Below the pieces are notes generated by a model. It did no database searches. It was not told the origin of the DNA and saw only the letters and a list, made by a program, of their open reading frames with translations. A stretch of 55,294 nt of DNA from a bacterium. GTDB lineage: Bacteria; Zixibacteria; MSB-5A5; WJJR01. The stretch covers positions 1-55,294 of the forward strand of contig DATMBC010000068.1 of NCBI GenBank assembly GCA_035559435.1, read 5' to 3'. The translations under genes and the position numbers were made by a program. This document shows positions 22,425 through 41,916 of this stretch, piece by piece. How positions within the stretch are numbered: position 1 is the stretch's first letter; the number at the start of each line of letters is the position of its first letter.

Positions 22425-22441
22425 TCTGGCAGTAGACAGGT

Positions 22442-24341: not shown

Positions 24342-25808
24342 ATGACGCTTCGCACAAAACTCCTCGGCAGCTACGCGACCATGCTGTTGGTGGTCATTGG
24401 GCTGGTCGTTGTAGGGCATGGGGCGGCGCGGCGCTGGCGGAGAACGGCGCAGGAGATGGCGCGCTCCTACGAACAGGGGGTCGTCGCCGAACGCCTCCGC
24501 TGGGCCATTCGTGAACTCGCTGAAGGTGATCCGGGACCGGACGCCGAACGATCGCGCGCCCTGCCTGATCTCATCGAGCGATTCATCGGCACCCTGCGGG
24601 ACCAGGCGGCGCAGTCAGCCGACAGCGTCCTGGAGCTCGATCACATCAACGGATTCGTTGAAGTGTATCGGGAGCTCCAGGTCATCCTCCAGCAACAGTT
24701 CCAACCGGATTCGTTGGCCGCCGCCGCGGGGGATGCGGAGAGGCCGCAGGCCCGGTTGACGGAAATTCGCGATGAAGTGGATGATGCGGCGCTCGCGATG
24801 GAACAGTACTTCCGTGACAACAACCGCCGCTACCTGGCCGAAGCCGACGACATCCGATCCCTGGCCGTTACCATGACCGGAGCCGCCGCCGCTCTGACGG
24901 TCCTGCAGTTTGTTATCATGGTGGTGTTGCTGCGTCGCTGGGTGACAAAACCCATGGAGGATCTGGAACATGCCGCCGAGCGGATCGGCGCGGGGCACCT
25001 GGACGTGCGCATCCGGCCACGCTCGGAGCGCGAATGGCAGACGGTCGCCAGGGCCGTCCACGAAATGGCGCGGTCGCTCTCGACCCTGCAACAGCAATTG
25101 CGTGTCAATGAGCGGTTTACCGCCATCGGAGAAGTGGCGGCCTTTACTGCGCACAACATTCGTAACCCGCTGGCAAGTATTCGGATGACCGCACAGGTTG
25201 CCCTGGGCGAAACGTCGAGCAACCCCGGCATCGAAGCGACACTCAAAGACATTATCGGCTGCGTCGACAAGATGGAGCAGTGGATTGCGGGGCTTTTGAA
25301 TTTTGCCCGTCCCATGTCCCTCACGCCGTCTCGTGTTCGCTTCGACGCGCTGGTCGATTCCGTGCGGGAGACTTCGCAGCCACAGGCGGCCGCCCGCGGT
25401 ATCCGGTTCGCCTGCTCGTATCGCGCCGGTGAGACGGTGGTGTCGGCGGACGAGGCGTTGTTCGAGCAGGCGCTGCATGCCGTGGTGGCCAACGCCATCG
25501 AGGCCTCGCCGAACGGTGGCATCATCCGATTGACGACCGAATGCCGGCCGGCCGAGGACCGCGCCTGGGCCGCGGTGACCGTGACGGATGCCGGTCCTGG
25601 AATCCCGGAGCCGCTGCAACCGAACATTTTCAAGCCATTCGTGACCGGCAAGCCCGGCGGCAGCGGCTTGGGACTCGCCCAAGCCAAGAAGATCCTCGAT
25701 CTGCATCTGGCGGAAATCGACGTGAGCAGCCGGACCGGCATGGGAACGTCGATCACGATTCGTTGTCCGATTCCCGAGGACGAGCATGGCACAGATAATC
25801 ATCATTGA
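24342..25808 (+). CDS. Membrane sensor histidine kinase (NtrB/AtoS-like)
   Basis: This 488-residue sensor kinase has TM1 at about residues 12-28 and a periplasmic or extracytoplasmic domain of about 140 mostly helical residues. TM2 is at about 173-200, followed by HAMP at about 200-255. The dimerisation/phosphoacceptor helix carries His271 in AHNIRNPLASIR, and the GHKL ATPase domain has the N-box ANAIEASPNGG and the G-boxes DAGPGIPE and GGSGLGLAQAKK. The HNIRNPL style of H-box is typical of kinases paired with NtrC-family regulators. ATG 24342 starts the first transmembrane helix region; the longer frame from 24216 has no signal. It overlaps the response regulator by 23 bp. The input signal is unknown. 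Confidence 0.93.
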   Translation: MTLRTKLLGSYATMLLVVIGLVVVGHGAARRWRRTAQEMARSYEQGVVAERLRWAIRELAEGDPGPDAERSRALPDLIERFIGTLRDQAAQSADSVLELDHINGFVEVYRELQVILQQQFQPDSLAAAAGDAERPQARLTEIRDEVDDAALAMEQYFRDNNRRYLAEADDIRSLAVTMTGAAAALTVLQFVIMVVLLRRWVTKPMEDLEHAAERIGAGHLDVRIRPRSEREWQTVARAVHEMARSLSTLQQQLRVNERFTAIGEVAAFTAHNIRNPLASIRMTAQVALGETSSNPGIEATLKDIIGCVDKMEQWIAGLLNFARPMSLTPSRVRFDALVDSVRETSQPQAAARGIRFACSYRAGETVVSADEALFEQALHAVVANAIEASPNGGIIRLTTECRPAEDRAWAAVTVTDAGPGIPEPLQPNIFKPFVTGKPGGSGLGLAQAKKILDLHLAEIDVSSRTGMGTSITIRCPIPEDEHGTDNHH

Positions 25809-27162
25809 CGACGAACTGCTGCTGGCAAAGGCGCTGGCCCGCTCGCTGACGCAGAAGGGCCACGACTGTTCGGTGGCGGGCACCGCGGAAGACGGGTTGC
25901 GCCTGCTGAAGTCTTCTCCGCCGGATGTGGTGCTTCTCGATCTTCAGCTTCCCGGCATGTCGGGGTTACAGGCGCTCGCGCAGATCATGGAGTTTGACCC
26001 GGGGATGGTGGTCATCATTGCGACGGCTTACGGTACGGTGGCTTCGGCGGTGGAGGCCATGCGCGCCGGCGCAGCGGACTTCCTGCGCAAACCGCTGGAC
26101 CTGGAAGAGGTCGGGCTGACCATCGAGCGCGCGCTGTCCAACGCGCGCCTGCGGGAGCGCCTCCGTTACTACGAGCAGCGTGATGTCGAGCTGTCCTCGG
26201 CGGACCAGATGCTCGGCGACAGCGAGGCAATGCAACGCCTGCTGGCAATCGCCAACCGTCTGAGTCAGTTGAATATATCCCGCGCCGGAGAGTGCCCCGC
26301 CATCCTCATCACCGGGGAGACGGGAACCGGGAAGGACACGCTGGCCCGCTACATCCATTACCGGAGCAAGTTCGCCTCTCAGCCGTTCATCGACGTCAAT
26401 TGTCCGACCCTGCCGCGCGGGTTGGAGGAGGCCGAGTTGTTCGGGTATGAGCGCGGCGCCTTCACCGGGGCGCACAAGTCCAAACGCGGGCTGTTCGAAG
26501 CCGCCGAGGGCGGCACGATCTTCCTGAACGAAATCGGCGATCTTCCGATGGAGGCGCAGGTCAAGCTGCTTCAAGTGATCGAGCGGCGGACGTTGCGTCA
26601 CATTGGCGGTCTGCGCGACGTCCCGGTGAACGTGCGCATCATGGCGGCGACAAACCGCGATCTGCCCGAATTGATTCAACGCGGCGGATTCCGCGAGGAT
26701 CTCTACCACCGACTGCATCACTTCTCCATTGTCATGCCGCCGCTCAGGGATCGCGGGCATGATGTGATCCTCCTGGCGAATCACTTTCTGCAACGGTCGC
26801 GGCGCAAATACGGAACCGGGCCGCTGGCATTCTCGCAGGCCGCGAAAGATTTGCTGGTCTGCTACCGATGGCCGGGCAATCTCCGCGAGCTTGACCACGT
26901 CATCGACCGCACTGTTGCCTTGAGTCATGGCCCTGAGATCACACCGGAAGACCTGGGCCTCCCCAACGATAGCCGTACGGTGAAAGCATCCGGAGATTCC
27001 GCTTCCCCGCAGCGCAAGACGCTGGATGAACTGGAGCGTGAGGCCATCATTCAAGCCCTGACAGTCTCCGGCGGCAACGTCAGCGAAGCCGCGCGACTTC
27101 TGGGAATCGGCCGCGAAGCCCTCCGTTATCGCATCCAGAAACACCGACTCGATAACGGTTAG
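25786..27162 (+). CDS. NtrC-family sigma-54-dependent response regulator
   Basis: This 458-residue activator has a receiver domain with acidic pocket DD8-9 and phospho-acceptor Asp52 in LLDLQLPG. The AAA+ domain has Walker A GETGTGKD (about 177-184) and the sigma-54 contact loop GAFTGA (about 224-229). The C-terminal Fis-type HTH reads NVSEAARLLGIGREALRYRI. The Walker B segment reads TIFLNEIGDLP, with Asn where Asp is commonest. An intact GAFTGA means it should activate sigma-54 RNA polymerase. A strong sigma-54 promoter lies 147 bp downstream, ahead of the dehydrogenase-led operon, so it is the probable direct activator. It is co-transcribed with its overlapping kinase. Confidence 0.95.
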   Translation: MAQIIIIDDELLLAKALARSLTQKGHDCSVAGTAEDGLRLLKSSPPDVVLLDLQLPGMSGLQALAQIMEFDPGMVVIIATAYGTVASAVEAMRAGAADFLRKPLDLEEVGLTIERALSNARLRERLRYYEQRDVELSSADQMLGDSEAMQRLLAIANRLSQLNISRAGECPAILITGETGTGKDTLARYIHYRSKFASQPFIDVNCPTLPRGLEEAELFGYERGAFTGAHKSKRGLFEAAEGGTIFLNEIGDLPMEAQVKLLQVIERRTLRHIGGLRDVPVNVRIMAATNRDLPELIQRGGFREDLYHRLHHFSIVMPPLRDRGHDVILLANHFLQRSRRKYGTGPLAFSQAAKDLLVCYRWPGNLRELDHVIDRTVALSHGPEITPEDLGLPNDSRTVKASGDSASPQRKTLDELEREAIIQALTVSGGNVSEAARLLGIGREALRYRIQKHRLDNG

Positions 27163-27193
27163 TCGGCTTCCGTCAGCGGACGACGCCGATGGT

Positions 27194-27219
27194 TGTAATC
27201 GACCAGTTGGTTGATTACA
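27194..27219. promoter_or_regulatory. Dyad upstream of the sigma-54 promoter, candidate activator site 1
   Basis: A 26-bp imperfect palindrome: TGTAATC and GATTACA arms with internal ACCA/TGGT, 11 of 13 positions symmetrical. It is centred about 128 bp upstream of the predicted transcription start, a usual distance for an NtrC-type enhancer. Assignment to the adjacent regulator is inference. Confidence 0.55.
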
Positions 27220-27264
27220 GCAAATACTACCTCTCGACTCAAGATTGACCCGGTCTCACCGTTT

Positions 27265-27277
27265 GTTGTCGGACAAC
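27265..27277. promoter_or_regulatory. Second dyad, candidate operator or activator site 2
   Basis: A perfect 13-bp palindrome, GTTGTC-G-GACAAC, centred about 64 bp upstream of the predicted start. Its sequence differs from the 27194-27219 dyad, so it may bind another protein. Confidence 0.45.
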
Positions 27278-27308
27278 TGGTTATGGCACAATCTGGCCGG
27301 TCCACGAT

Positions 27309-27323
27309 TGGCACGTCCTTTGC
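27309..27323 (+). promoter_or_regulatory. Sigma-54 (RpoN) promoter
   Basis: TGGCACG-TCCT-TTGC matches the -24/-12 consensus exactly, with a T before it and correct 12-bp spacing between GG (27310-27311) and GC (27322-27323). The predicted start is near 27335, about 16 bases before ATG 27351 and 6 bases before its GGAGG ribosome site. It drives the dehydrogenase-led operon. Confidence 0.85.
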
Positions 27324-27350
27324 CATGGCTGTGACGCTGTGGAGGACCAC

Positions 27351-28769
27351 ATGCGGTCAAATGCCACCTCTGGAATCGGTGCAATCGACATCGCCGGCAC
27401 GCAGTCGCGTGTGACGGAACTAAGCTGGTTGACCCGGGCAGAAAATGTCGCGCCCTCGACCGGCACAAGCGTCTGCGTCATCGGCGGCGGATTTGTGGGA
27501 TTGGTGACGGCCGCTTGCCTGGCGCAGACCGGGCATAGCGTGGTCTGCGTCGAAAAGGACGCACAGAGAGCCGCGGATCTCTCGGCGGGACGAATTCCGA
27601 TCTACGAGCAGAGTTTGCCGCAATTGGTGCGCGCCAATCTCGAGCGTGACCGGTTGCGCTTCACGACCGATCTCCGCCAAGCCGTTGCCGGGCAGGACAT
27701 TCTGGTTATCACCGTGGGCACCCCGTCCGGCGCCGATGGCCGAGCCGACTTGACGGCCCTGGATACTTTGATAAGTGACCTGGGCCCGATCCTCGCCGCC
27801 GGGCAAATCGTGACGATCAAAAGCACGGTTCCGGTCGGCACGGCGGCGCGTGTCCGCCGCATGCTGAACCCCCATGACGATGGAGCGGAGCCGATTCCCG
27901 TCGTCAGCAATCCCGAATTCCTGCGCGAAGGCACGGCGGTCTATGATTTCTTCCACCCGCAGCGCGTTGTGGTGGGGGCGTCGTGTCCCGACGCCGCCGA
28001 CCGCGTCGTGCAGACGTACCGGGCGGGCTTGGCGCGCCCCGCGCCCATCGTTGTGACGAGCAATGAAACGGCCGAACTAATCAAGTACGCATCCAATGTC
28101 TACCTGGCGACCCGACTCTCCTTCGTCAATGAGCTATCGTCGGTCTGTGATGCGCTCGCCATCGATATCGGCGATGTCGCCTATGCGATGGGGTTGGATC
28201 CCCGTATTGGCGCGGAATACTTCGACGCCGGCCCGGGATTCGGTGGTTCCTGCCTGCCCAAGGACCTCGACGCGTTCATTTCCTTCTCGGAACGTAACGG
28301 CGCCAAACTCGAATTGGCCCCCGCGGTGAAGGCGGCAAATGAGCGGCAGCTGGAGCGGGTCCTGGCGAAGATTCGACTCGCCGCGGGCGGGAGTCTCGCC
28401 CAACAACGCATCGGTATACTCGGCCTGTCCTTCAAAGCCCAGACACAGGACATGCGCGACTCACCCGCCAAAAGCATCATCGAGATGCTGTTGCAACAGC
28501 AGGCGCTCGTTCAAGCCTACGATCCGGTGGCGATGGACGAGGCGCGCAGGGTTCTGCCCCAAATCACGCTGTGCCATCGGGCCGAAGATGTCGCCAGCGG
28601 AGCCAGCGTCGTCGCTGTCATGACCGAATGGCCCGAATTCCAGCTGCTGGACTGGCGATTGGTGCACGATCGAATGCTTCGGCCGGTGATCGTCGACGCG
28701 CGCAATCACCTGAGCCCCGAAACGCTGCAGCGCGCCGGTTTTGAATACATCGGGATGGGACGTCGTTGA
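27351..28769 (+). CDS. ugd: UDP-glucose/GDP-mannose 6-dehydrogenase family
   Basis: This 472-residue NAD-dependent dehydrogenase oxidises the C6 of a nucleotide sugar, most likely UDP-glucose to UDP-glucuronate. The Rossmann motif VIGGGFVGLVTAACLA starts at about residue 45, after an unusual N-terminal extension of about 44 residues. Other motifs are STVPVGT, SNPEFLREG, KYASNVYLATRLSF and the catalytic Cys301 in GFGGSCLPKD. ATG 27351 has GGAGG five bases upstream; a GTG at 27339 is the alternative. It is the first gene of the glycan operon under the sigma-54 promoter, and the product would give the polymer uronic acid residues. Confidence 0.93.
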   Translation: MRSNATSGIGAIDIAGTQSRVTELSWLTRAENVAPSTGTSVCVIGGGFVGLVTAACLAQTGHSVVCVEKDAQRAADLSAGRIPIYEQSLPQLVRANLERDRLRFTTDLRQAVAGQDILVITVGTPSGADGRADLTALDTLISDLGPILAAGQIVTIKSTVPVGTAARVRRMLNPHDDGAEPIPVVSNPEFLREGTAVYDFFHPQRVVVGASCPDAADRVVQTYRAGLARPAPIVVTSNETAELIKYASNVYLATRLSFVNELSSVCDALAIDIGDVAYAMGLDPRIGAEYFDAGPGFGGSCLPKDLDAFISFSERNGAKLELAPAVKAANERQLERVLAKIRLAAGGSLAQQRIGILGLSFKAQTQDMRDSPAKSIIEMLLQQQALVQAYDPVAMDEARRVLPQITLCHRAEDVASGASVVAVMTEWPEFQLLDWRLVHDRMLRPVIVDARNHLSPETLQRAGFEYIGMGRR

Positions 28770-28791
28770 TTCAGAGCCAGGGAATACCCGA

Positions 28792-30060
28792 ATGAGCGCA
28801 CCGTTGATACAAACGGATTCTCCGGCTCCCGCGGCGGCCCATCAGGCGATCTCTGCGCGGCCTCAGGCCCGGCCCGCGATTCGTGTGATGATCTATTCGC
28901 ACGATACGTTTGGGCTGGGGCATTTCCGTCGCTGCCTGAAGCTGGCCCGCGAATTCAGCCGGCAGGCCGGCGACAGCACGACCCTGCTGATGACGGGCTC
29001 GCCGTTGGCGCACCGCTTCTCCCTGCCCGACCGCGCCGATTACATCAAGCTGCCCGCGGTGGTCAAGACCGGCGTGGACGAGTACGCGGCGCGTTCGCTC
29101 CATGCGGATATCGACGACATCATACGGTTGCGCGCCTCGCTCATCGAAACCGCGGCCCGACAGTTCGGGCCCACCGTGCTGCTCGTCGACCATGCGCCCC
29201 TGGGGTTGAAAGGCGAAATCCTCCCGACCCTGAAACGGCTCCGGAAGCGTGCCGACGTGACGGCGGTGCTCGGACTGCGCGATGTGATCGATGAGCCGGA
29301 CTGGATACGCGCGCAATGGCGCCACAACGGCACCTATGAGGCGCTGGACGCGCTGTTCGATCGGATCATTGTGTATGGGCATTCCAACATCTTCGACACG
29401 GTCGGCGAGTACTGCCTGCCGCCATCGGCGCAGTACTGCGGTTACCTGGCCGGAGACGCCGACCCCGCGGCCGAGGGAGCAACGGTCGACTCGGACGCCA
29501 GGCCGTACGTTCTCGTCACCGTCGGCGGCGGGGAGGATGGACGGCACATTGTCGATGCGTTCCTGGAGATGTTGCGCCGCCATCGCGGCGACGTCGGTTT
29601 TGACACCGTTCTGCTGCCCGGCCCCCTGCTCCCCGCGGACGCTATCGTTGAAATCGAACAGTGCGCACAAGGGCTGCCCGTGACAGTCCGCTCATTCGTG
29701 GACAATGTCCCGGCGTTGATGAAAAAAGCCTCCTGTGTCGTGTCGATGGGAGGGTACAACGCCGTCGCGGAGTTGCTCGCGTATGCGCAAGACGCGCTGA
29801 TCATTCCCCGCGAATCCCCCCGGCGCGAGCAGTTGATCCGCGCTCATCGCCTCCACCAGATGGGCATCGTGCGTATGTTGAGGGTGTCGGACTTGACATG
29901 TGAGAATCTCTACCGCGCGACGCGCGGCATTCTCGACGCGCCCGCCTCAGCGCTGGACTCCGCCCGTCGCGATGGCCACGTGCGCACCGACGGCGCGAAG
30001 CAGGCTGTCCGCATTGTGCTGGAGTCAGCCATCGCCATTGGAAAAGGGGACGGACAGTGA
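28792..30060 (+). CDS. Predicted GT-B glycosyltransferase (COG4671/MurG-like)
   Basis: This 422-residue protein begins, after a ~30-residue Pro/Ala-rich tail, with VMIYSHDTFGLGHFRRCLKL, the N-terminal signature of the COG4671 predicted glycosyltransferases. The C-terminal nucleotide-sugar domain has VLVTVGGGEDG and VVSMGGYNAVAELLAY (about residue 319), as in GT28/MurG-like enzymes. No transmembrane helix or signal is seen, so it is cytoplasmic and perhaps peripheral. It starts 22 bp after the dehydrogenase and ends GTGA-overlapped with the next gene. Donor and acceptor are unknown. Confidence 0.82.
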   Translation: MSAPLIQTDSPAPAAAHQAISARPQARPAIRVMIYSHDTFGLGHFRRCLKLAREFSRQAGDSTTLLMTGSPLAHRFSLPDRADYIKLPAVVKTGVDEYAARSLHADIDDIIRLRASLIETAARQFGPTVLLVDHAPLGLKGEILPTLKRLRKRADVTAVLGLRDVIDEPDWIRAQWRHNGTYEALDALFDRIIVYGHSNIFDTVGEYCLPPSAQYCGYLAGDADPAAEGATVDSDARPYVLVTVGGGEDGRHIVDAFLEMLRRHRGDVGFDTVLLPGPLLPADAIVEIEQCAQGLPVTVRSFVDNVPALMKKASCVVSMGGYNAVAELLAYAQDALIIPRESPRREQLIRAHRLHQMGIVRMLRVSDLTCENLYRATRGILDAPASALDSARRDGHVRTDGAKQAVRIVLESAIAIGKGDGQ

Positions 30061-31349
30061 GCGATACGCTTCGCATCGGCTACGTCGTCCGCATGTTCCC
30101 GCGGTTCTCCGAAACGTTTGTGCTGCAGGAGATCCTCGAACTGGAGCGGCAGGGCGCCGACGTCACGATCTTTTCCATGCTGAAGCCAAACGAAGGGCGG
30201 TTTCACCCGGCGCTGTCGAGTCTGCGCGCCCGGGTCATCTATCTCGATGAACGCGAGGCAAAGCGGTGGTGGACCTGGCTGCCGGAGGAGTGGCCGGCAC
30301 TGGCCTCCGACCGCGATCGGCTGTGGACGTTGGTGGAGGAGGTCACGCTGCGGGGCAACGGCAGCGAGTTGGATCTGGTCTTTTGGGGCGCGCTGCTGGC
30401 CGCGAAGGCGCGGTCGCTGGCGCTGGATGCCCTGCATGCCCACTTCGCCTCGGCGGCCGCCTCTTTGGCCTACTACGCCCACCGCATCAGCGGCATCAAC
30501 TACAGCTTCACGGCGCATGCGAAGGACATTTTCACCGAGTCGATTGATCGCGACTTCCTGACAACGAAGATCAACGCGGCGCGCTTCATTGTCACCGTGT
30601 CCGAGTTCAACCGCCGGTTTCTCATCGAGGAACACCCCGGCGTGTCCGCCGAGCGCATCCGCGTGCTCTACAATGGGATCAATCGTGAGTTCTTCTCGCC
30701 GGCAAACGCCACTCCGCGCGAGCAACCGGCGCTGATTCTGTCGATCGGACGTCTGGTGGCAAAAAAGGGGTTCGCGGACCTGATCCGCGCCTGCGGCGAA
30801 CTGAAGCGCCGCAACCTCCACTTTCGCTGCCTGATCGTCGGCCAGGGGCGCGAAGAAGCCGCGTTGCGCGAACTGGTTTCCGCGCTGGGACTTGACGACC
30901 GGGTCGGTTTTGCCGGCGCACGGCATCAAGAGGAGGTGCGCGATCTGATGCGCCTTGCCACGGTGCTCTGCCTCCCCTGCCGGCGCGACAGCGATGGGAA
31001 TCAAGACGCTTTGCCAACGGTGCTCCTCGAGGCGATGGCTTGCGGACTGCCCGTGATATCGACGCGCTTGTCGGGCATTCCGGAGATCATCGATGATGGG
31101 GCCGACGGCCTGTTGGTCGATCCAGAATCGCCGACGCAGGTCGCCGATGCGCTGGAGAGCATCCTCGACGCCGGCGATCGGTGGACGCGGCTCCGGGAGG
31201 GCGGGCTCCGCAAGGCGGCCGCTCGTTTCGACATTCAGCGTAACGTCTCCGTGCTCCATGGCTGGCTGAAGGAACGCGCCGGAGAGCGCGGCCGTTCGAT
31301 CCCAGCCGGCGCGGATGTTCAGATCCCGCCGCAGCGAGGCCGGTCGTGA
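30057..31349 (+). CDS. Glycosyltransferase family 4, WcaL-like
   Basis: This 430-residue retaining GT4 enzyme starts MSDTLRIGYVVRMFPRFSET, a pattern seen in WcaL/AmsK-type exopolysaccharide glycosyltransferases (MFPRxSETFI). The C-terminal domain has LSIGRLVAKKGFADLI and the donor-binding EAMACGLPVIST with the later Glu in SGIPEI. Start is GTG 30057, overlapping the previous TGA (GTGA). It likely adds a sugar to a lipid-linked or nascent glycan at the inner membrane face. Confidence 0.9.
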   Translation: MSDTLRIGYVVRMFPRFSETFVLQEILELERQGADVTIFSMLKPNEGRFHPALSSLRARVIYLDEREAKRWWTWLPEEWPALASDRDRLWTLVEEVTLRGNGSELDLVFWGALLAAKARSLALDALHAHFASAAASLAYYAHRISGINYSFTAHAKDIFTESIDRDFLTTKINAARFIVTVSEFNRRFLIEEHPGVSAERIRVLYNGINREFFSPANATPREQPALILSIGRLVAKKGFADLIRACGELKRRNLHFRCLIVGQGREEAALRELVSALGLDDRVGFAGARHQEEVRDLMRLATVLCLPCRRDSDGNQDALPTVLLEAMACGLPVISTRLSGIPEIIDDGADGLLVDPESPTQVADALESILDAGDRWTRLREGGLRKAAARFDIQRNVSVLHGWLKERAGERGRSIPAGADVQIPPQRGRS

Positions 31350-32596
31350 TGCGCATCCTCTATCTCTGCGCGGATCCGGGCGTCCCTTACTGGGGGACAA
31401 AGGGAGCGTCGATTCATGTCCGGGCATTCGCCCGCGCGCTGGTTGCCGCCGGACAGGAAGTGACCGTGGTGATCGCGCGCGCGGGAAAACCGCACGGGAC
31501 GCTGCCGGAGGGGGTGCGTGTCGTCGAGATTCCCGCGGAAAGCGAGCAATTCTTCGCGCCGCGACCGGACAGCGCGGCGGACGAGGCGACGCTTCTGTAC
31601 GAGGCCCGGCAGTTCTCCCAGAATCGTGCGGCGCAGGACGTCATGAACGACCTATTGGCCCACGAGCGGTACGATATCATCTGTGAGCGCTATTCACTGT
31701 TCAGTGTCGCCGGACGTGAGAGCGCGCGCTGGCATGACCTACCGTTTGTGCTGGAGGTCAACGCGCCGCTGGCGCGCGAAGCCAAGGAACACCGGCAGTT
31801 GATATTGGAGCCGCTGGCGCTTGCGATCGAGCGGTATCTTTACGCGAGCGCCGATCAGGTCGTCACGGTCTCCGCCGCCCTGGCCACACACGTTTCACGC
31901 ATCGCGCCCGCGGCGTCGGTCTCCGTGATCCCCAACGGAGTCGACGTCGACGCGTTTGAATCGGTCGCCTCCGCCTCCGACTGGCGGGAGTCACGCGGTC
32001 TGACAAGGAATGGGGATTTCTGCATCGGCTTCATCGGCAGTCTGAAACCCTGGCACGGACTGGACATCCTGATGGACGCCTTCGCGCAACTCGAACCCAG
32101 CCGCAGCCGCTATCGGCTGCTGCTGATCGGCGACGGTCCGCTGCGTCCGGCCCTCGAACGCGAAGTGCAGGAGCGGAACCTCGCGGCGCAGGTGGTCATG
32201 ACGGGCGCCATCCCCCATGAAGAAATCCCGTCCGCCACTCAGGCCTGCGACGTGCTGGTCGCACCGTATCCAAGCATGGAGAATTTCTACTTCTCTCCGC
32301 TCAAGGTGTATGAATACATGGCCGCGGGTCGACCGATCGTCGCCTCGCGCATCGGGCAGATTGCCAGTATTCTGACACACGAGGAAAACGCATTGCTGTC
32401 CGAACCGGGCAAAGCGCTGCCCCTGGCGCGCGCCATCGAGCGGCTGCGCGGCGATTCCGACCTGGCCGGACGGCTGGCCCAACGCGCGCGGCACGACGCC
32501 TTCACGTCGCACTCGTGGCGCCGCCGCATGGTCGATTGGATCGCGATGTTCAACCAGCTGTCGGAAACGAGAATGCGCGAGGAGTCTGGCGCGTGA
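31349..32596 (+). CDS. Glycosyltransferase family 4
   Basis: This 415-residue GT-B enzyme has N-terminal MRILYLCADPGVPYWGTKGA, a middle nucleotide-binding part FIGSLKPWHGLDIL, and the C-terminal SPLKVYEYMAAGRPIVAS motif of family 4. ATG 31349 overlaps the previous stop (TGATG); a GTG three bases earlier is possible. It is the third glycosyltransferase of the operon, which suggests a repeat unit or glycan of at least three added sugars. Confidence 0.9.
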   Translation: MRILYLCADPGVPYWGTKGASIHVRAFARALVAAGQEVTVVIARAGKPHGTLPEGVRVVEIPAESEQFFAPRPDSAADEATLLYEARQFSQNRAAQDVMNDLLAHERYDIICERYSLFSVAGRESARWHDLPFVLEVNAPLAREAKEHRQLILEPLALAIERYLYASADQVVTVSAALATHVSRIAPAASVSVIPNGVDVDAFESVASASDWRESRGLTRNGDFCIGFIGSLKPWHGLDILMDAFAQLEPSRSRYRLLLIGDGPLRPALEREVQERNLAAQVVMTGAIPHEEIPSATQACDVLVAPYPSMENFYFSPLKVYEYMAAGRPIVASRIGQIASILTHEENALLSEPGKALPLARAIERLRGDSDLAGRLAQRARHDAFTSHSWRRRMVDWIAMFNQLSETRMREESGA

Positions 32597-34449
32597 AAGT
32601 GCGTCTCCGCTGGCCCCGATTTCCGCTCGGCGAATTGCGCCGCGTGTACGGCTATTTCGGCGGCCACCTGCGCGAGCACAGGCCGGCGTTGCTGGGAGGC
32701 GCGGCCTGTCTCATGGGTATTGCGCTGGTCGAGATGGCGCGCCCGTGGCCGCTGAAGCTCGTGTTCGACCACATCCTGTTGCCCCAGCAGGCCCACGTGG
32801 GCTGGGGCGGCACAGCCCTGCGCGATTGGTCCACGACACAGATTCTGATTCTGGCCAGCATCGGGCTCCTGGCCATCGCCGTCATCTCCGGTTTGTTGAC
32901 CTACGGACAAACGATGCTGCTGGGCGCGGTCGGGCATCGCGTCGTCGGCGGCATCCGACTGCAGCTCTTCTCGCACATCCAACGGCTGCCGCAATCCTAT
33001 CACGATCAACGCGAGACCGGCGATCTGATGATGCGGTTGACCGGAGACCTGAACCTGCTCAAGGATCTTCTGGTCTCGATCGTCATCACCCTGGGAAGCA
33101 GGATCGTGATTGTCGTGGGAATGCTGGTGGCGATGCTTTGGATGGATTGGCAGCTGACCCTGATCGCTCTGTCCATCGTGCCCGTCTTGCTGGCGGCCAA
33201 TACGCATTTTTCGACCCGCATCAAGTCCGAATCACGGCGACAGCGGCGCAAGGAGGGCATGCTGGCGGACGCGGTGCACCAGTCATTCGCCGGAATGACG
33301 CTGACCAAAGTCTTCGCTCAGGAGAAAAGGCAGGAGAAGCGATTCAGCAAGGGCATCTCCAGCGACGTGCGGGCGGGCTTGAAGATCCGTCGACTGGAGG
33401 CCTCCTTCTCCCGCACCGTCGAGATCGTCACGGCGCTGGGCTTGTGCCTGGTGCTCTGGTTCGGGGTGCGACGTGTGCTGGCCCAGGAACTGTCCGCCGG
33501 CGACCTGCTGATCTTTATGTCCTATATCCGTCAATTATACCGGCCGGTCCGCGATACCGCGCGTCTGGCGACACGGACATCGAAGGCGATTGTCGCCGCC
33601 CAGCGCGTCATGGAAGTCCTCGATCTGAAGGCGCCGATTGAGGATCATCCCGGCGCGGTGTCGGCCTTCGGCCTCCAGGGAGCGACGCGGTTCGAAGGGG
33701 TCACGTTCGCATACAGCGCCGGCAACCCGGTCCTGCACAATGTGTCGTTTGCAATCCCCGCCGGCAAGACCACGGCCATCATCGGACCGAGCGGATCGGG
33801 CAAATCGACGATCGCCAAACTGCTGTTGCGGCTTTACGAACCGCAGACGGGCCGCATTCTCATCGACGAAAGGGACTACCGGGAGTACCAGTTGCACAGT
33901 TTCCGCAAACAGATCACCAGCTTGACTCAGGATGTGACGATGTTCCACGCCAGCGTGCGCGATAACATCGCCTTCAGTTGGCCCAAGGCAACGGATGACC
34001 AGATTGTCGCCGCGGCGCAGTCGGTCGGCGCGCATCAATTCATCATGGATCTACCGAACGGTTACGACACGGTGCTCGGCGAGGGCGGCTTGACACTCTC
34101 GGGAGGCCAGCGACAACGACTGGCGTTCGCCCGCGCCGCGCTGCGCGACTCCCGCATCATGATTTTTGATGAGCCGGCCACCGGACTCGATGCTGACGCC
34201 GAGCGTCATGCCAAGCAGGCGCTTCTCTCCCTGCGGAACGGACGCACGCTTGTGATCATCACGCACCGACTCAACTTTCTTGAGCTGGCCGATCATGTCA
34301 TCGTCGTCGAGGACGGGCGCGTCACCGACGAGGGTGATCCCGTTGATCTGTCCGGCAAGCCGGGGCGTTTCCAGGCCTTCGTGCAGAACTGGTACGACGC
34401 GCAGCACCCACGGCACACGTCCGACTACCCGGCGGTGAATCCCGTATGA
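32593..34449 (+). CDS. ABC exporter, fused permease and ATPase (MsbA/ABCB type)
   Basis: This 618-residue half-transporter has a membrane domain of about six helices (roughly residues 25-320). The nucleotide-binding domain has Walker A GPSGSGKSTIAK (about 397), Q-loop SLTQDVTMF, signature LSGGQRQRLAFARA (about 502), Walker B IMIFDEPATGLD and H-loop ITHRLN. GTG 32593 overlaps the previous TGA, matching the coupling at other junctions; the longer in-frame extension overlaps the GT gene. It presumably moves the lipid-linked or short glycan product across the inner membrane. It belongs to the MsbA/PglK/NdvA-like class and not to the two-component Wzm/Wzt class. Confidence 0.93.
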   Translation: MKVRLRWPRFPLGELRRVYGYFGGHLREHRPALLGGAACLMGIALVEMARPWPLKLVFDHILLPQQAHVGWGGTALRDWSTTQILILASIGLLAIAVISGLLTYGQTMLLGAVGHRVVGGIRLQLFSHIQRLPQSYHDQRETGDLMMRLTGDLNLLKDLLVSIVITLGSRIVIVVGMLVAMLWMDWQLTLIALSIVPVLLAANTHFSTRIKSESRRQRRKEGMLADAVHQSFAGMTLTKVFAQEKRQEKRFSKGISSDVRAGLKIRRLEASFSRTVEIVTALGLCLVLWFGVRRVLAQELSAGDLLIFMSYIRQLYRPVRDTARLATRTSKAIVAAQRVMEVLDLKAPIEDHPGAVSAFGLQGATRFEGVTFAYSAGNPVLHNVSFAIPAGKTTAIIGPSGSGKSTIAKLLLRLYEPQTGRILIDERDYREYQLHSFRKQITSLTQDVTMFHASVRDNIAFSWPKATDDQIVAAAQSVGAHQFIMDLPNGYDTVLGEGGLTLSGGQRQRLAFARAALRDSRIMIFDEPATGLDADAERHAKQALLSLRNGRTLVIITHRLNFLELADHVIVVEDGRVTDEGDPVDLSGKPGRFQAFVQNWYDAQHPRHTSDYPAVNPV

Positions 34450-35816
34450 ATTCCCTCTCCGCTGTGACCGACTCCTTCGTCGACATTCCGGACGGGCTCG
34501 ATATTCCGGGACTGTCGATCTTGCTCGATGCCGGCGCGATGCGCAAACGCCTGGAGCAGACACTTCCGGCCGGCCCGACGCGGATCACTGCCTGCCACAT
34601 CACCAACTTCCGCTTCCGCACTCCGACGAATTGCACAATCGCCTACGAGCTGACGGCCCATGTCGAGGGAGCGCCGAGCGACGTGACGGTGCATGCCTAC
34701 GCGCGGGCCTACTCGCAGGCGGCATATCCCCAGGCCCGTCACAAGGCGCTGAGCTCTCGTTGGGTGGTTTCCGCAATCGGAACGAGCGTCCAGATGTTGG
34801 ACGAGCTGTACGCTGTCCTCTACTGGTATCCCAATGATGAGCGGCTCAGCGGGCTGCGCGGTATCGCCGCGCCCAGAAAATTGCAGCGACTCTTCTATCA
34901 GAATCTGAGCGATTTCCCCAGCGCAAGTTGGCGGATCTCCGACCGCAGCATCCGGTTGTCGCTGCTTCGTTACAAACCCGAGCGCCGCGCCGTGTTGCGG
35001 TGCCGCTTCCGCGCGCATCGCCTGGGAACCGCAGAGCAACACGAGTTGTTTGTCTTCCTCGGCGTCTATGAGGACGTGCGCGCGGCGCAGCTGTCCGGAT
35101 TAATCGCTCGGCTGACGGAGCGGCTGAACAATGCGACGGAATTGTCGCTGCCACGCACGATCGCCTGCGTGCCCGACGCCGGACTCCTGGTGTCCGAGGT
35201 GGCCCCCGGCGACACACTGCAGTTGCTGTTGTCGGAGAATACCGCGTTCGCAGCGGAGGCGATCAATCGATCCGCCAACGCGATCGCCCGCCTGCATCGC
35301 GTCGCGGCGGGAAGCGATATCCCTGCAAACCCGGGACACGAAGCGCGCCTCTTCGAAACCGTGGAATTGATCGGCCGCCTTGCGCCGGATTGCCTGCGCA
35401 CGGCGCGTGAAATAGCCGATCAATTGGGACGCGACGGACTGATATCAGGTGCGAACCGATCCGTGATACACGGCGATCTCCATCCTGGGCAGATCCTGCT
35501 GTCCGACGCGCGGACCACTCTGGTCGATCTGGATCGCACCCGCTACGGTGACCCGCTCGAGGACATCGGCAACTTCTGCGCGCAGCTTCGCCTCGGCCCG
35601 CCGGGTGGTCCGCTCTGGGATCCGGACACGGTTCAATCGCGGTTCCTGAGCGCATATGAGCGGAGCACCAGCCGCAGGATCGACCAACACGCACTGTCCC
35701 GCTGGATTGCCTTCGCGCTCCTCCGTGCCGGCGTGATCCCCCTCGGTCGATTCCAGCCCAACTGGCGGGCCGCCATGAAGGACATTCTCGCGGCGGCGCA
35801 GGAGCGCCTGCAATGA
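34446..35816 (+). CDS. APH-fold phosphotransferase-like protein, first copy
   Basis: This 456-residue protein has, after about 170 residues of unassigned sequence, the aminoglycoside-phosphotransferase/choline-kinase fold. The catalytic loop is VIHGDLHPGQILL (about residue 339) and the metal-binding Asp is in TLVDLDRTRYGDPLEDIGNF. The conserved HGDLHxxQ and DxD suggest a live kinase. ATGA overlaps join it to the ABC transporter before it and to a second APH-like protein after it. In this context it may phosphorylate a sugar, lipid or glycan terminus. The APH resemblance alone does not indicate antibiotic resistance. Confidence 0.8.
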   Translation: MNSLSAVTDSFVDIPDGLDIPGLSILLDAGAMRKRLEQTLPAGPTRITACHITNFRFRTPTNCTIAYELTAHVEGAPSDVTVHAYARAYSQAAYPQARHKALSSRWVVSAIGTSVQMLDELYAVLYWYPNDERLSGLRGIAAPRKLQRLFYQNLSDFPSASWRISDRSIRLSLLRYKPERRAVLRCRFRAHRLGTAEQHELFVFLGVYEDVRAAQLSGLIARLTERLNNATELSLPRTIACVPDAGLLVSEVAPGDTLQLLLSENTAFAAEAINRSANAIARLHRVAAGSDIPANPGHEARLFETVELIGRLAPDCLRTAREIADQLGRDGLISGANRSVIHGDLHPGQILLSDARTTLVDLDRTRYGDPLEDIGNFCAQLRLGPPGGPLWDPDTVQSRFLSAYERSTSRRIDQHALSRWIAFALLRAGVIPLGRFQPNWRAAMKDILAAAQERLQ

Positions 35817-37129
35817 AACTCACGACCGCCTCCCCGCTGCTGGAACGTTCTCTGCAGGCGGATGCCATGCAAGCGCTCCTAACGCCCATTGTCCGCGCGG
35901 CGTATGCGGCTGAACTGGCATCGGTCGACGTGCCCCGCGTCATGCCGCGCTCGACCGGCGAGATTCTCATTCAATACCACCTTTCCTATGCGGAGCGGAG
36001 CCGCGAATCCTTGACTCCGCCGGTCCTGTTTGGCGAGTTTTTCCCGGACGGCGCTCCGGACCAACCGAACAGCCCCGAACGGCTCCCGGACACGGTCTGG
36101 CTGGAGCACCTCCCGCTCCGGCTGTGGCTCTACCCGCACGATCCCCAATTGAGGTATCTGCATCTGATCTGCGATCCGAAGCAGTTTCACTCCGTGTACG
36201 AGTCGACTTTGGAAAACGTCGGATATGGACGCGAAAGAATGGGAACTCCGGCCACGATCCTTGGGTATCGATTGGGTCGGCGTTGTGTGGCGCAGGTCCA
36301 ATGGATGCCAGGCGACTCCGCTCCGGTTAAGACACCCTCCAAAGGCAATATCGTGGTCAAGATGTGCCGGACACGTCAAGCCCTCCCGCTGTGGACTCGC
36401 ATGCGGCAATTGGCGCACGAGGGCTTTGCGGAGAAGTCATCGGATGGGATCAGCATCCCCAAGGGGCTGTTTCTGCATCAGGAGACCGGCGCGCTGTTCC
36501 AACGGTATGAGGCGGGCGAATCATTGCACGATCTGATCGACACCGAGGCATTCGTGCGCGGTTGCGGTCTGGCGGGCAGGACACTTCAAAAGCTGCACGC
36601 GACACGTCTCCTCGGGCTCCCCCTGTATTCCGCCAACGATGAACTGACACATCTTGAGTGGCTGGTGAGCGTTACCACCCGGTTCTATCCCGGCCTGGAG
36701 GTTGGACTGCGCGCCGCGCTGTCGGATGTGCAATCCGGGAGCGTGCGCGTCGAGAATCCGCCGATGGCGACAAGCCACCGGGACTTCTACGACAAGCAAC
36801 TGCTGTACTCCGAAACGCGGGCCGTGCTTCTGGATTGCGACACCCTGTCACTGGCGGACCCGGCGCTCGACTACGGCAACTTCCTGGCTCATCTCCAATG
36901 GCGAATGCACCAGTCTCCCGGCGACAGCGGACGCCTCCAACGCGGTGCCGAGGCGTTCCAGAGCCAATATCCCATTCCGGATGCCGAGTTTGCCGCGCGC
37001 GCCGCATGGTGGACTTCGAGTGCGCTCTTGCGTCTGGCTTGCTTATACCTTTGGCGCCCCCGTTGGCGCAGTTCGGTGCCGGCATTGATGCGATCGCGCC
37101 GGTTCCAGCGTCGAGTTGCAGTCATCTAA
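35813..37129 (+). CDS. APH-fold phosphotransferase-like protein, second copy
   Basis: This 438-residue protein has an unassigned N-terminal half and a C-terminal kinase-like part: a catalytic loop TSHRDFYDKQLLYS (about residue 320), where HxD is kept but Gly is replaced by Arg, and a metal site VLLDCDTLSLADPALDYGNF. It is thus an APH-like enzyme divergent from the preceding one, with only distant similarity between the two. ATGA-coupled start at 35813. The pairing of two such proteins directly after a glycan ABC exporter is unusual and suggests a two-step or heteromeric modification. Confidence 0.72.
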   Translation: MKLTTASPLLERSLQADAMQALLTPIVRAAYAAELASVDVPRVMPRSTGEILIQYHLSYAERSRESLTPPVLFGEFFPDGAPDQPNSPERLPDTVWLEHLPLRLWLYPHDPQLRYLHLICDPKQFHSVYESTLENVGYGRERMGTPATILGYRLGRRCVAQVQWMPGDSAPVKTPSKGNIVVKMCRTRQALPLWTRMRQLAHEGFAEKSSDGISIPKGLFLHQETGALFQRYEAGESLHDLIDTEAFVRGCGLAGRTLQKLHATRLLGLPLYSANDELTHLEWLVSVTTRFYPGLEVGLRAALSDVQSGSVRVENPPMATSHRDFYDKQLLYSETRAVLLDCDTLSLADPALDYGNFLAHLQWRMHQSPGDSGRLQRGAEAFQSQYPIPDAEFAARAAWWTSSALLRLACLYLWRPRWRSSVPALMRSRRFQRRVAVI

Positions 37130-37142
37130 CTTGGAGGTGTTC

Positions 37143-37718
37143 ATGACTCGGTCGGTTGTCCTCATCCTCTGTCTTTGCGTCGTCGTCGGATCGACAATCG
37201 CCGGTGAACCGCCCGCGTACATGCAGGCCACTGCGGGCAGTACCGCCGAGATTAAAATTGAGCGCGAGAAAGAGGGCGCCCTACGCGCCGATGAGCTCGA
37301 ACTGCTTCCCTCGGCCCGCCGCCCGAAACTGCGCGGCGCGATTGAGGCGGTCGACAGCATCCGACAGGCCATTCGCGTCTTTGGCCAGTGGATCACGGTC
37401 ACCCGTGAGACACAGTTTCTCGACCAGACGGACACGCCCATCGGATTCCGCAGCCTGAAACCCGACACAAGAGTCGAAGTCAGCTGCAAAGTCGACAGCC
37501 TTGGGAACTGGAGCGCGCGCCACCTGCGGACTCAGGGTGTCAAGTCATCGGACAAGATCAAGGGTACGATTTCCCGGACGGCGTATGACGGCCGCTCACC
37601 CGACACGCTGGAAATCGAAGGACTGAAGATCATCGTGACGGACCGGACGGAGGTGTTCCGCACGTTGGGCGGCGCCGCCGAAGCCGCGGACACCGCCGGC
37701 ATGTCCGAGGAGCAATGA
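37143..37718 (+). CDS. Secreted DUF5666-like protein
   Basis: This 191-residue protein has a signal peptide (MTRSVVLILCLCVVVGSTIAG). Two beta-rich segments resemble DUF5666: LRGAIEAVDSIRQAIRVFG...TVTRETQF, and KIKGTISR...LEIEGLKIIVTDRTEV. ATG 37143 has GGAGGT four bases upstream. It lies 13 bp after the kinase-like gene and four bases before the barrel gene, so it belongs to the operon. A periplasmic location is likely. The barrel protein that follows carries similar segments, which suggests a partnership. Confidence 0.68.
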   Translation: MTRSVVLILCLCVVVGSTIAGEPPAYMQATAGSTAEIKIEREKEGALRADELELLPSARRPKLRGAIEAVDSIRQAIRVFGQWITVTRETQFLDQTDTPIGFRSLKPDTRVEVSCKVDSLGNWSARHLRTQGVKSSDKIKGTISRTAYDGRSPDTLEIEGLKIIVTDRTEVFRTLGGAAEAADTAGMSEEQ

Positions 37719-37722
37719 CGTC

Positions 37723-39654
37723 GTGACGACCGCGTTCCCCCCGCTGCGCAATCAACCGATGACCCGCCCTGCCCTGCGGGACACGGTGGCGTTTGGTTCC
37801 GCGGGGATATTGATCATCCTCCTGCTGAGCGCGTCGCCGCTTCCGGCGGCGACGGTCCCGGAGTTGCCCCCTGGTACGATCGTTGCAATCAAGCCGTACG
37901 AGCATCGTGTGCCGTTGACCGCGCGCACACTCCTGATCACCGGCCAGCCAATCGATGAAGGGGAAACCGTATCCCTCAGCCTCCGCGCCCCGATCGAAGG
38001 GATCGCGACAGAGGAATCCCAGATGCGTATCGCCGGACGGACTGTCGCGATTTCATCGCAGACCCGCGTCCCGGCCGGCCTGCGCAGTGTGACGAATTTG
38101 CGGCGGGGACAATGGGTGAAGGTGAAGATTGACACCTCCGACCCGGAACACTGGTCGGCCCTCCGCATTGAGACGGAAAACATCGACCGCCGCCGCAAGA
38201 TTGAGGGCCCCGTCTCCGGTCTGTGGCGCGGCCGCGACGGCGCGATCGACTCCGTATCCGTGGCGGGACTTGTCGTGGCGGTCTCCCCGACAACGCGGAT
38301 TGATGATCATATGCGTTCCGCTTCTGAACGGTTGTTCGACGAACTGGTCACCGCGCGCGACCCGCGGCAACCGGGGCCGTGGTGGAACGCCGGCTGGATC
38401 TGGTCGCGCGGCAAGCTGGGAGTCATTCAGCGCATCGAGAATGATTTCACCGCGGGCGATTCAACCGGCGATCGGTATCGTGAAGCCGAGCCAAGTGTCC
38501 GGCTTGAATTGACCGCGCGCGGGCCCGCCCGGCTTACGGCATTTGCCAAGCTCCGCGCCCGGCAGACGGCGGTCATCGAAGATGCGCCGTTGCGCCGCAG
38601 GCCAAAAGAGAAAGTCATTCAACTCTACGAGGCGTTTGTCCTCTGGCGCGATGCGTTCTCTCTGCCGCTCGCCGTTCAAATTGGCCGGCAGGATTTCGAC
38701 GAATACCGAGAGTGGATCTTCGATGATCAATTGGACGCGCTGCGGTTCTATGCGTATCCGCTGTACCCTGTCGTCGCGGAAGCGGCCTACATAAACTCGC
38801 TCGACAATTCCACCGGCAACAAATACCGCACGACAAAAGACTATCTGATCCACCTGCACTGTCGAGTGAACGCATCCACCGAGCTCGGAGCGTACCGCCT
38901 CTGGCGGACGGATACCGATGCGCGCGGCCGTGAACCCATTTGGACGGGGGTGCGGTGGCGGGGGAACTACTTCGGTTTTCGTCCGTGGGGAGAACTTGCC
39001 TGGCTGGGCGGATGGGACAAGGGGCGGCGATTCGACGCCCATGCAACCGACCTGGGACTCACCGCCTCCAGGCAGCTGGGTTCGCGTCGCGTCTCCGTCA
39101 CCGTGGCTCATGCGCGCGGCTCCGGGAACTCAGACGATCCCAAGGCAACCGGAGTCGACCACCAGTTCATTCAGACCGGCTATGAGGACAACACCAGCGC
39201 CTTCGGCGGCGTCGTCTCGTTCCAGTACTACGGCGAGATCTTTGATCCCGAACTGGCAAACCTCGACATCCTCACCTATGGGGCCGGCGTGGGCTTGACC
39301 CCTTCCTTGTCAGTCGATGTGGTTTATCACCGATATCGGCAGTCGGAATACTCGCCAACGGTGTCGCGTGATCTGGAGAGCACCGACCTGACGCTCTACG
39401 ATCTTGGCGGCCGCGGTATTGATCCGTCCAACAACCGCCCGGTCAAGGAACTGTTTCCCTATCCGCACGTCGGCTGGGAGATCGATGTGATCATTGGGAT
39501 GACAGGCCTGCTCGGCGTGCTGGACGTCAAAGGGGTCCTTGGTTACTTCGAACCGCAGGAGGCGCTATTTCCGCCCTTCTGGGAGGAATTACCGTTCAAA
39601 TCCAGGAAACACGCCGCGTTTCTCAGCCAGATCAACTTGGAATACAGATTCTAA
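37723..39654 (+). CDS. AlgE-like outer-membrane export barrel with N-terminal DUF5666-like part
   Basis: This 643-residue protein starts at GTG 37723, preceded by GAGGAG at a 10-base spacing; ATG 37759 is an alternative nearer the signal helix (GILIILLLSASPLPAA). Residues about 45-200 contain DUF5666-like repeats (EGIATEESQMRIAGRTVAIS; IEGPVSGLWRGRD). The rest is a beta-barrel resembling alginate-export proteins: alternating hydrophobic strands, a QIGRQDFDEYREWIFDD region, and a C-terminal aromatic residue (LEYRF) as expected for outer-membrane barrel insertion. It is the last gene of the coupled operon and a plausible outer-membrane exit for the glycan made by the upstream genes. Confidence 0.78.
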   Translation: MTTAFPPLRNQPMTRPALRDTVAFGSAGILIILLLSASPLPAATVPELPPGTIVAIKPYEHRVPLTARTLLITGQPIDEGETVSLSLRAPIEGIATEESQMRIAGRTVAISSQTRVPAGLRSVTNLRRGQWVKVKIDTSDPEHWSALRIETENIDRRRKIEGPVSGLWRGRDGAIDSVSVAGLVVAVSPTTRIDDHMRSASERLFDELVTARDPRQPGPWWNAGWIWSRGKLGVIQRIENDFTAGDSTGDRYREAEPSVRLELTARGPARLTAFAKLRARQTAVIEDAPLRRRPKEKVIQLYEAFVLWRDAFSLPLAVQIGRQDFDEYREWIFDDQLDALRFYAYPLYPVVAEAAYINSLDNSTGNKYRTTKDYLIHLHCRVNASTELGAYRLWRTDTDARGREPIWTGVRWRGNYFGFRPWGELAWLGGWDKGRRFDAHATDLGLTASRQLGSRRVSVTVAHARGSGNSDDPKATGVDHQFIQTGYEDNTSAFGGVVSFQYYGEIFDPELANLDILTYGAGVGLTPSLSVDVVYHRYRQSEYSPTVSRDLESTDLTLYDLGGRGIDPSNNRPVKELFPYPHVGWEIDVIIGMTGLLGVLDVKGVLGYFEPQEALFPPFWEELPFKSRKHAAFLSQINLEYRF

Positions 39655-39747: not shown

Positions 39748-41916
39748 ATGAAGCCGCGTCAAGTCCGTTCGGGGTTCCTCATCGCCGGCGCAATCCTGTT
39801 CACCGCGGTCGCCGAGAGCGCGCAGGCAGGGATTCTGACCGGAAAGGTGACCAACCCGAACAATGTCGGTGTCGCCAACGTAAAGGTCGATTTCTTTGAG
39901 TCGTCGACCGGTAATCCAATCGTCGTCACGGGCAATCTGACCGACGCCGGCGGAAATTACGGCGTGCTGGTCCCGAACGGCACCTACGACGTCGAGTTCG
40001 TCACCCCGGTGGCGCCGGGTGGCATAGTGCCGGCGCGTTACACCGCGGTCACCATCAATACAACCGTCACGTTGAATGTGTCGCGGCCTTTCGGCAAGGT
40101 CCTCGATGGCACGGTCTTCGACACGCTGGGCGCCGCGGTGCCAAACGTCGATCTCAATGTGATCGATGCCCTCACCGGAACGCTGGAGTTTACGCCGAAT
40201 GACAATACCGACGCCTCGGGCAACTACGGTGTGATGATCGCTCCCGGACTGAAGAACATTGTCTACGCCGATCAGAACGCCGGGTCGCGGCTGGCCGCCC
40301 GGTCCCTGACCAATGTCAATATCGTCAACGACTCGACAATTGATGTGTCCCTGCCCGCGGGCGTCTTCGTGAACGGCACGGTATGGGATGGGTTTTCGCA
40401 ACCCGTGACGGGCGCCGATCTTGACTTCGACGATGCCGCCACCAAGACCCGCCTGACGACACCCAGCGATAACACCGATAATAATGGTGATTACATCGTG
40501 ACCGTGCCGCGCGGCACCTATGATATCACCGTCGAGCCGGACGTCGCCGACCGCCTGGTCGCGGAGCGTCGGTTTTCCATCCCAGTCAACAAGGATACGA
40601 CGATCGATTTCACGCTCCAAGCGGGCCTGAGTTTGTCCGGCAGCGTGAGCGGTCCGGGAGGAGCCGTGGCCAGCTGCGACATCGACGTGATCGACGCCGG
40701 CACACGCGCCAAACTCGTGACGCCCGGCGACAGAACCGACGGCGCCGGCTTCTATGAAGTTATTGTCCCTGTGGGGAACTATGAAATGCACTTCCAGCCG
40801 CCGGTGGCCACACATTTGGCATCCGTCATCAAAACGGGAATCCACGTAGCCATGGATACGATCGTCAACGCCGCCGTGCCGGCGGGCGTGATCCTGAGCG
40901 GACATATTCAGAGCGGCACCGGCGCCAATGTCGATGCCTGCGACATCGATGTCTTCCTCAGCTCCACGGGAGCGACGGTGCTCGCATCGGGCGACAAGTC
41001 GAACTTCTTCGGCAATTATGAGATGGTCGTCGTGGGCAACACCTACGATCTGGAGTTCGAGGCTCCGAAGACGCGTCGCCTGCAGGCCAAACGGTTCACC
41101 TCGGTGGCGGTGACGTCCAATGTGAATTTCCCCGTCACCCTGGATACGGGACTGTCGGTGAGCGGTACGGTCACAGGCGGCGGAACGCCGATTGACAGCG
41201 TCAATGTCGATGCCATCTTGCAGAGTTCGGGAGTGAGCACGTTCCAGCCCGGGGACCGTACGGACGCGGCGGGATTCTACCAGATTATCATCGGTTTTGT
41301 GCCGCACACGCTGGTCTTCTTCCCACCCGTGGCGTCCGGCTATGCCGCCAAGTCGTTCACGAATATCAACCCCGGCGGGGACCACACTCTGAATGTCGCG
41401 TTGGGCACAGGATTCCTGGTCACGGGCACGGTGACCCAGACCGGCGGCGCCCCCGTCAGCGGAGCGACGCTGCGCGCGGAGTCCGGTCCGACGTGGGTTC
41501 CGACGACGGATGGCGTCTCGCGGGCCGACGGGTACTACGAGACTCTCATCCCGGGTGGCACTTACACTCTGCGGTTCATTCGAGCCACGGGCCCGACGGC
41601 CGATACGGTTGTGCTGAGCAGCGTCGCTATCGCACGAGACACGGTCATCAACGTGGAGTTCTCTGCGGCGGCGTGTACATGCCCCTGCAAGTACGATCCG
41701 GCGTGCGACGGCGTGATCTCGAACGTGCAGGATGTCGTGACCACAGTCAATGTGGCCTTCCGTGGGGCATCCGGAATCATCGATCCTGGATGCGGTATCG
41801 AGAGGACGGATGTCGATGGAAACGGTTTTACCAGCGTGACCGATGTGGTTCGGATTGTGAACGTCGCGTTCCGCGGCGCCGATCGCTTGACCCAGTATGT
41901 CGATCCCTGCCCGTAA
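39748..41916 (+). CDS. Secreted repeat protein with carboxypeptidase-regulatory-like domains and dockerin-like tail
   Basis: This 722-residue protein has a signal peptide ending ESAQA. Seven beta-sandwich repeats of about 85-90 residues follow, each opening like LxGxVxxxxGxxVxxVxVD and containing DxxGxYxVxVPxGTYD, a CarboxypepD_reg/CNA-B-like pattern. The tail is TCPCKYDPACDG plus two dockerin-like segments sharing VNVAFRG (VQDVVTTVNVAFRG; TDVDGNGFTSVTDVVRIV), ending YVDPCP, the same design as the protein at 1-960. ATG 39748 has GAGGGAG six bases upstream. It lies 93 bp after the barrel gene with no terminator found, so it may be part of the same transcription unit. It could be a surface or matrix protein associated with the glycan. 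Confidence 0.78.
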   Translation: MKPRQVRSGFLIAGAILFTAVAESAQAGILTGKVTNPNNVGVANVKVDFFESSTGNPIVVTGNLTDAGGNYGVLVPNGTYDVEFVTPVAPGGIVPARYTAVTINTTVTLNVSRPFGKVLDGTVFDTLGAAVPNVDLNVIDALTGTLEFTPNDNTDASGNYGVMIAPGLKNIVYADQNAGSRLAARSLTNVNIVNDSTIDVSLPAGVFVNGTVWDGFSQPVTGADLDFDDAATKTRLTTPSDNTDNNGDYIVTVPRGTYDITVEPDVADRLVAERRFSIPVNKDTTIDFTLQAGLSLSGSVSGPGGAVASCDIDVIDAGTRAKLVTPGDRTDGAGFYEVIVPVGNYEMHFQPPVATHLASVIKTGIHVAMDTIVNAAVPAGVILSGHIQSGTGANVDACDIDVFLSSTGATVLASGDKSNFFGNYEMVVVGNTYDLEFEAPKTRRLQAKRFTSVAVTSNVNFPVTLDTGLSVSGTVTGGGTPIDSVNVDAILQSSGVSTFQPGDRTDAAGFYQIIIGFVPHTLVFFPPVASGYAAKSFTNINPGGDHTLNVALGTGFLVTGTVTQTGGAPVSGATLRAESGPTWVPTTDGVSRADGYYETLIPGGTYTLRFIRATGPTADTVVLSSVAIARDTVINVEFSAAACTCPCKYDPACDGVISNVQDVVTTVNVAFRGASGIIDPGCGIERTDVDGNGFTSVTDVVRIVNVAFRGADRLTQYVDPCP

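Follow-up and report, generated by a model that had tools for sequence, protein, structure and literature searches.

The window analysed here, which is the whole of contig 68 (55,294 nt) of a 3.0-Mb draft Zixibacteria genome, carries a sensor kinase and an NtrC-type regulator at the head of a glycan export operon, and this two-component system very likely forms a dedicated switch, probably with a single target, which drives the operon via sigma-54. Direct control by the adjacent regulator, as proposed in a preliminary description of this DNA, is supported at the sequence level by the co-inheritance of regulator and operon, the footprint of operator and -24/-12 element, the uniqueness of the tandem operator and the presence of RpoN, which is encoded in the host genome. 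In the proposed circuit, an envelope signal would cause the kinase to phosphorylate the regulator, an oligomer of which would bind the tandem palindromes at 27190-27223, just past the stop codon of its own gene, and remodel sigma-54 RNA polymerase at 27309-27323 for open-complex formation. The transcript would start at approximately 27335 and extend over 12.3 kb (to the barrel gene) or 14.6 kb (if the gene for the repeat protein is included). Circuits of this general kind are already known. The present example pairs an enhancer and promoter defined by their footprint with what is probably a single target, so that operator, regulator and operon constitute a small, portable and testable unit; a literature search for comparable sigma-54 enhancer/promoter work in the Zixibacteria found none.

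Gene content and limits of the operon

All the genes named in the preliminary description are present on the forward strand with Pfam support (Table 1), and its statement that they mostly overlap at ATGA or GTGA is borne out by the four-base stop/start overlaps of this type at five of the eight internal operon junctions. As homology begins only at approximately residue 43 of the kinase open reading frame, which opens at TTG 24216, ATG 24342 is the likely start of this gene. For the dehydrogenase, the most likely predicted start is ATG 27351, behind the GGAGG motif, and is preferred over GTG 27339 because the latter lies just 4 nt from the predicted +1 (27335). The operon had been described as ending at 39654; the genes up to the barrel are as described, but this limit is not retained, as the operon probably continues through the gene at 39748-41916, which follows after a gap of 93 bp and keeps its barrel-adjacent place in those relatives whose contigs reach this far. 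By eye, the C-terminus of the protein encoded by this last gene seemingly carries two dockerin-like repeats that follow those of the carboxypeptidase-regulatory-like type, with no family match.

Table 1. Features of the predicted regulatory and glycan export locus
Feature	Position	Strand	Support and remarks
GalE-like NDP-sugar epimerase, divergent	23247..24191	-	Pfam; adjoins kinase in six of the relative loci examined
Sensor histidine kinase (HAMP-HisKA-HATPase_c)	24342..25808	+	Pfam; likely start
NtrC-type response regulator / sigma-54 EBP (receiver, AAA+, Fis-type HTH)	25786..27162	+	Pfam; overlaps end of kinase gene
Operator half 1, TGGTTGTAATCGACCA	27190..27205	+	Conserved palindrome
Operator half 2, TGGTTGATTACAGCAA	27208..27223	+	Conserved palindrome, 18 bp from half 1
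Sigma-54 -24/-12 promoter, TGGCACGTCCTTTGC (TGGCACG-N4-TTGC)	27309..27323	+	Predicted +1 at ~27335
UDP-glucose 6-dehydrogenase family	27351..28769	+	Pfam; SD GGAGG 27341-27345
GT28-type (MurG-like C-terminal) glycosyltransferase	28792..30060	+	Pfam
GT4 glycosyltransferase	30057..31349	+	Pfam; nearest NCBIfam model EpsE (under cut-off)
GT4 glycosyltransferase, second	31346..32596	+	Pfam
MsbA-type fused ABC exporter	32593..34449	+	Pfam
APH-fold kinase-like protein 1 (HGDLHPGQ, DLD motif)	34446..35816	+	Pfam, family profile
APH-fold kinase-like protein 2 (HRDFYDKQ, DCD motif)	35813..37129	+	Pfam
DUF5666 protein, hydrophobic N-terminus like signal peptide	37143..37718	+	Pfam
DUF5666 + Alginate_exp outer-membrane barrel	37759..39654	+	Pfam; alternative start GTG 37723 possible
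CarboxypepD_reg-repeat surface-type protein, probable last operon gene	39748..41916	+	Pfam; adjoins barrel in relatives

Predicted glycan and export route

A role in glycan export is supported by the gene families of the operon and by the match of the barrel family profile to PDB AlgE structures (E 2.4e-14), with both Alginate_exp and DUF5666 present in 11 of 11 aligned family members. The APH family profile matches methylthioribose kinase, corramycin phosphotransferase and maltokinase, and the H-G-D and D-x-D motifs are kept, with Gln where Asn is usual. The AlphaFold models predicted for the barrel (pLDDT 30) and the first APH protein (pLDDT 46) were too poor for structure search. The operon products would make UDP-glucuronate, and the three glycosyltransferases would build a glycan, likely containing uronate, probably on a lipid carrier. 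The two APH-fold kinases would phosphorylate a sugar or acceptor, while the MsbA-like ABC exporter would flip the glycan prior to its passage via the AlgE-like barrel. Neither a synthase, a phosphoglycosyltransferase, an OPX or PCP protein nor a TPR scaffold was found in the cluster with Pfam; the single OPX and single phosphoglycosyltransferase matches of the genome are both located on contig 55, and these proteins could serve in trans. Literature searches on Zixibacteria exopolysaccharide and on a link of DUF5666 to polysaccharide gave no useful work.

It is possible, though on balance doubtful, that the product is a glycan of the cell envelope linked to lipid, either LPS-like or a glycolipid, instead of a secreted polymer and that the AlgE-like barrel is a porin, which would be compatible with sigma-54 control. 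The MsbA type of the exporter and a cluster free of polymerase and synthase genes are consistent with such a product, but the barrel family matches the AlgE profile, and the arrangement of glycosyltransferase, APH, ABC and alginate-export genes recurs on plasmids of Candidatus Manganitrophus, beside an alginate lyase family gene. A secreted polymer is the preferred reading. In these plasmid clusters (CP114557, CP114554), GT28-type, GT4, APH-family, ABC exporter and alginate-export genes likewise occur together, but alginate lyase, radical SAM and histidine phosphatase genes are added, the order differs and protein identity is 21-41%; the annotated stretches examined contain no kinase/regulator pair. 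Three further candidates were set aside: the APS operon of S. meliloti, of which the reported gene set (uxs1-uxe-apsS-apsH1-apsE-apsH2) differs, weak APH matches in Rhodospirillales and Rhodobacter (L018, L019), which are not syntenic, and alphaproteobacterial plasmid matches with little in common beyond GT28 and GT4.

A secretion route of this kind would share the AlgE-family barrel with synthase-dependent alginate export. The alginate pathway, however, has a synthase and a TPR scaffold, neither of which is encoded in the cluster, whereas here the barrel is fused to DUF5666 and an ABC exporter lies within the operon. Export dependent on an ABC transporter or on Wzx/Wzy, with OPX and beta-barrel proteins (PMC9603273), likewise has an exporter or flippase together with a barrel porin. 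The cluster, however, lacks OPX and PCP genes, the partners used in ABC-dependent capsule export of the KpsMT type, OPX being encoded elsewhere in the genome. AlgE homologues near OPX genes have already been reported (PMC9603273), and a mixed export route therefore has some precedent. By bringing ABC-type and AlgE-type export together in one conserved gene set, the predicted pathway is unusual and makes it more pressing to ask whether both routes can combine.

Distribution and co-inheritance of the cluster

The gene for the first APH protein, taken as the cluster marker, is present in 17 of 132 Zixibacteria genomes spread over five families. The cluster is missing from both of the other genomes in the host's genus and from a further two in its family, a patchy distribution indicative of loss, transfer or both. 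Searches with 13 window proteins (tblastn) revealed an order common to the loci examined, namely kinase, regulator, dehydrogenase, GT28, GT4, GT4, ABC, APH, APH, DUF5666 (where found), barrel and repeat protein. Relatives from five families have the cluster in colinear form, each contig that extends far enough shows the regulator at the front, and matching genes occur in a relative from the same family (G006). An additional APH gene or a second repeat-protein gene is present in some lineages, while the dehydrogenase gene is absent at two loci (L056 and L059), where the sigma-54 element remains before the next gene. Among 20 genomes searched, a regulator ortholog (54-72% identity) occurs in all five that bear the cluster and in none of the 15 cluster-free genomes, in which merely paralogs of ~40% identity were found.

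Conservation of operator and sigma-54 promoter

The palindrome TGGTT-N6-AACCA, with up to two mismatches, is present in the regulator-operon gap of 12 of 13 loci, usually in tandem at 18 bp, compared to a mean of 0.7 loci (maximum 4) in mononucleotide shuffles. Operator mismatches total 13 over the 13 loci versus 45.2 +/- 2.5 in dinucleotide shuffles (minimum 35), and 12 versus 34.8 with one locus per genus, figures that are partly post hoc in that the operator consensus was first derived from the same sequences. The optimum for pairing of the palindromes is a spacing of 18 bp, although the tandem arrangement fits poorly at L050 and L052. The distance from the end of the best palindrome to the -24 element downstream is 83-107 bp at every locus but L060, which has neither operator nor sigma-54 element. 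Searches of whole genomes for the tandem operator placed it solely in the regulator-operon gap in G000, G016 and G022, suggesting that the regulator has one target; G019 has one unrelated match with three mismatches. Both dyads of the preliminary description exist in the window. The first is the conserved operator, while the second, GTTGTCGGACAAC (27265-27277), had no recognisable counterpart in the loci of relatives.

The promoter, earlier described as consensus-perfect, indeed matches throughout the 15-mer, although the optional base that follows is C and not A/T. Five exact copies of the 15-mer TGGCACGNNNNTTGC are present in the 3.0-Mb genome (none of the reversed control), a count from which ~3e-4 exact copies are expected per 176-bp gap. 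When scored at a fixed offset against the textbook sigma-54 consensus, the promoters of the 13 loci reach 257.5 versus 175.5 +/- 7.1 in dinucleotide shuffles (maximum 195), and 195 versus 136.1 with one locus per genus, with a weak -24 or -12 at L057, L058 and L063. This test against a textbook consensus, the spacing optimum and the genome-wide uniqueness of the tandem operator are less exposed to post hoc bias. One promoter-like site at 37872, within the barrel gene, was taken as a chance match. Another exact sigma-54 15-mer (L077; G000 contig 101, 7226-7240) precedes a gene whose start resembles that of a lipoprotein, and an EBP gene is found on the same contig.

A housekeeping promoter ahead of the kinase gene could instead drive most of the expression of kinase, regulator and operon as a single read-through transcript, leaving the sigma-54 element a minor role. 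Regulator and operon share a strand, the 176-bp gap between them is short, and it contains no terminator-like site on the forward strand, such that read-through is possible. A passive gap would nevertheless lose the footprint, which here keeps operator and promoter at fixed offsets in loci whose proteins are just ~30-55% identical, and neither the gap nor the stretch just before the kinase gene yielded a sigma-70-like site in a simple scan. Expression chiefly by read-through is accordingly considered unlikely, and control through the sigma-54 promoter remains the favoured interpretation.

The regulator and its motifs

Receiver, AAA+ sigma-54 and Fis-type HTH domains were all identified in the regulator with Pfam, and the sigma-54 contact loop is an intact GAFTGA, in agreement with the earlier account of a kinase and NtrC-type activator directly before the promoter. 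The orthologs carry GAFTGA, GSFTGA, GSFSGA or GAFTDA, of which GAFTDA and GSFTGA are given as activation-compatible for Desulfovibrio (PMC4641369). The Walker B motif, usually hhhhDE, reads FLNEIG, with Asn for Asp and the Glu kept. A study on PspF (PMC3419264) describes the D107A variant, with Ala rather than Asn, as nearly without ATPase activity, and the altered motif counts against the proposed switch. It is highly improbable that the altered Walker B makes the regulator repress at this site, or activate without sigma-54 remodelling: FLNEIG is found in 13 of 13 orthologs and LDE in most other readable EBPs, but the -24/-12 element is conserved together with the operator, the contact loop is GAFTGA or a close variant, some of these being listed as functional, and Asn is not unique, as the readable EBPs of the host and other Zixibacteria comprise eight with DE and two with NE, namely this regulator and a second EBP encoded by the host. 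For an activator acting through sigma-54, the conserved Asn raises the question of how essential the Walker B Asp is in natural activators. Tentatively, and with less confidence than for the switch itself, the locus might represent a polysaccharide secretion system conserved in Zixibacteria, in which an MsbA-like flippase delivers to an AlgE-type barrel fused to DUF5666, with no OPX, PCP or synthase involved, under a one-target sigma-54 activator working with a Walker B Asn.

The circuit fits the view of sigma-54 as a controller of the cell exterior (PMC3162934). The PrsK/PrsR system of PEP-CTERM/exosortase bacteria (Haft 2006, PMC1569441) similarly pairs a tandem kinase and NtrC-like regulator with nearby glycosyltransferases, and an upstream activator motif with a sigma-54 element some distance on. 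PrsK/PrsR, however, targets dispersed PEP-CTERM genes, while the target here would be the adjacent operon. Membership in this system was rejected, as the scores for TIGR02915 (382.8 of 502.6 bits) and TIGR02916 (78.8 of 300 bits) fall below the cut-offs; the host genome has no match to the exosortase family PF09721.

Other features of the window

On the reverse strand, 42277-55271 is a stretch of lower GC content (mostly 54-58% versus ~63% elsewhere) resembling a defence island. It encodes a TmtA-like/ResIII helicase (42277-47001), a DruE-like helicase (49161-54263) and an AAA_14/DUF4143 protein (PDC-S01; 54276-55271), as well as two unassigned open reading frames, 47513-48331 and 48315-49157, all on this strand. 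At 20171-22843, also on the reverse strand, a peroxidase-family gene adjoins a FUR-family regulator gene.
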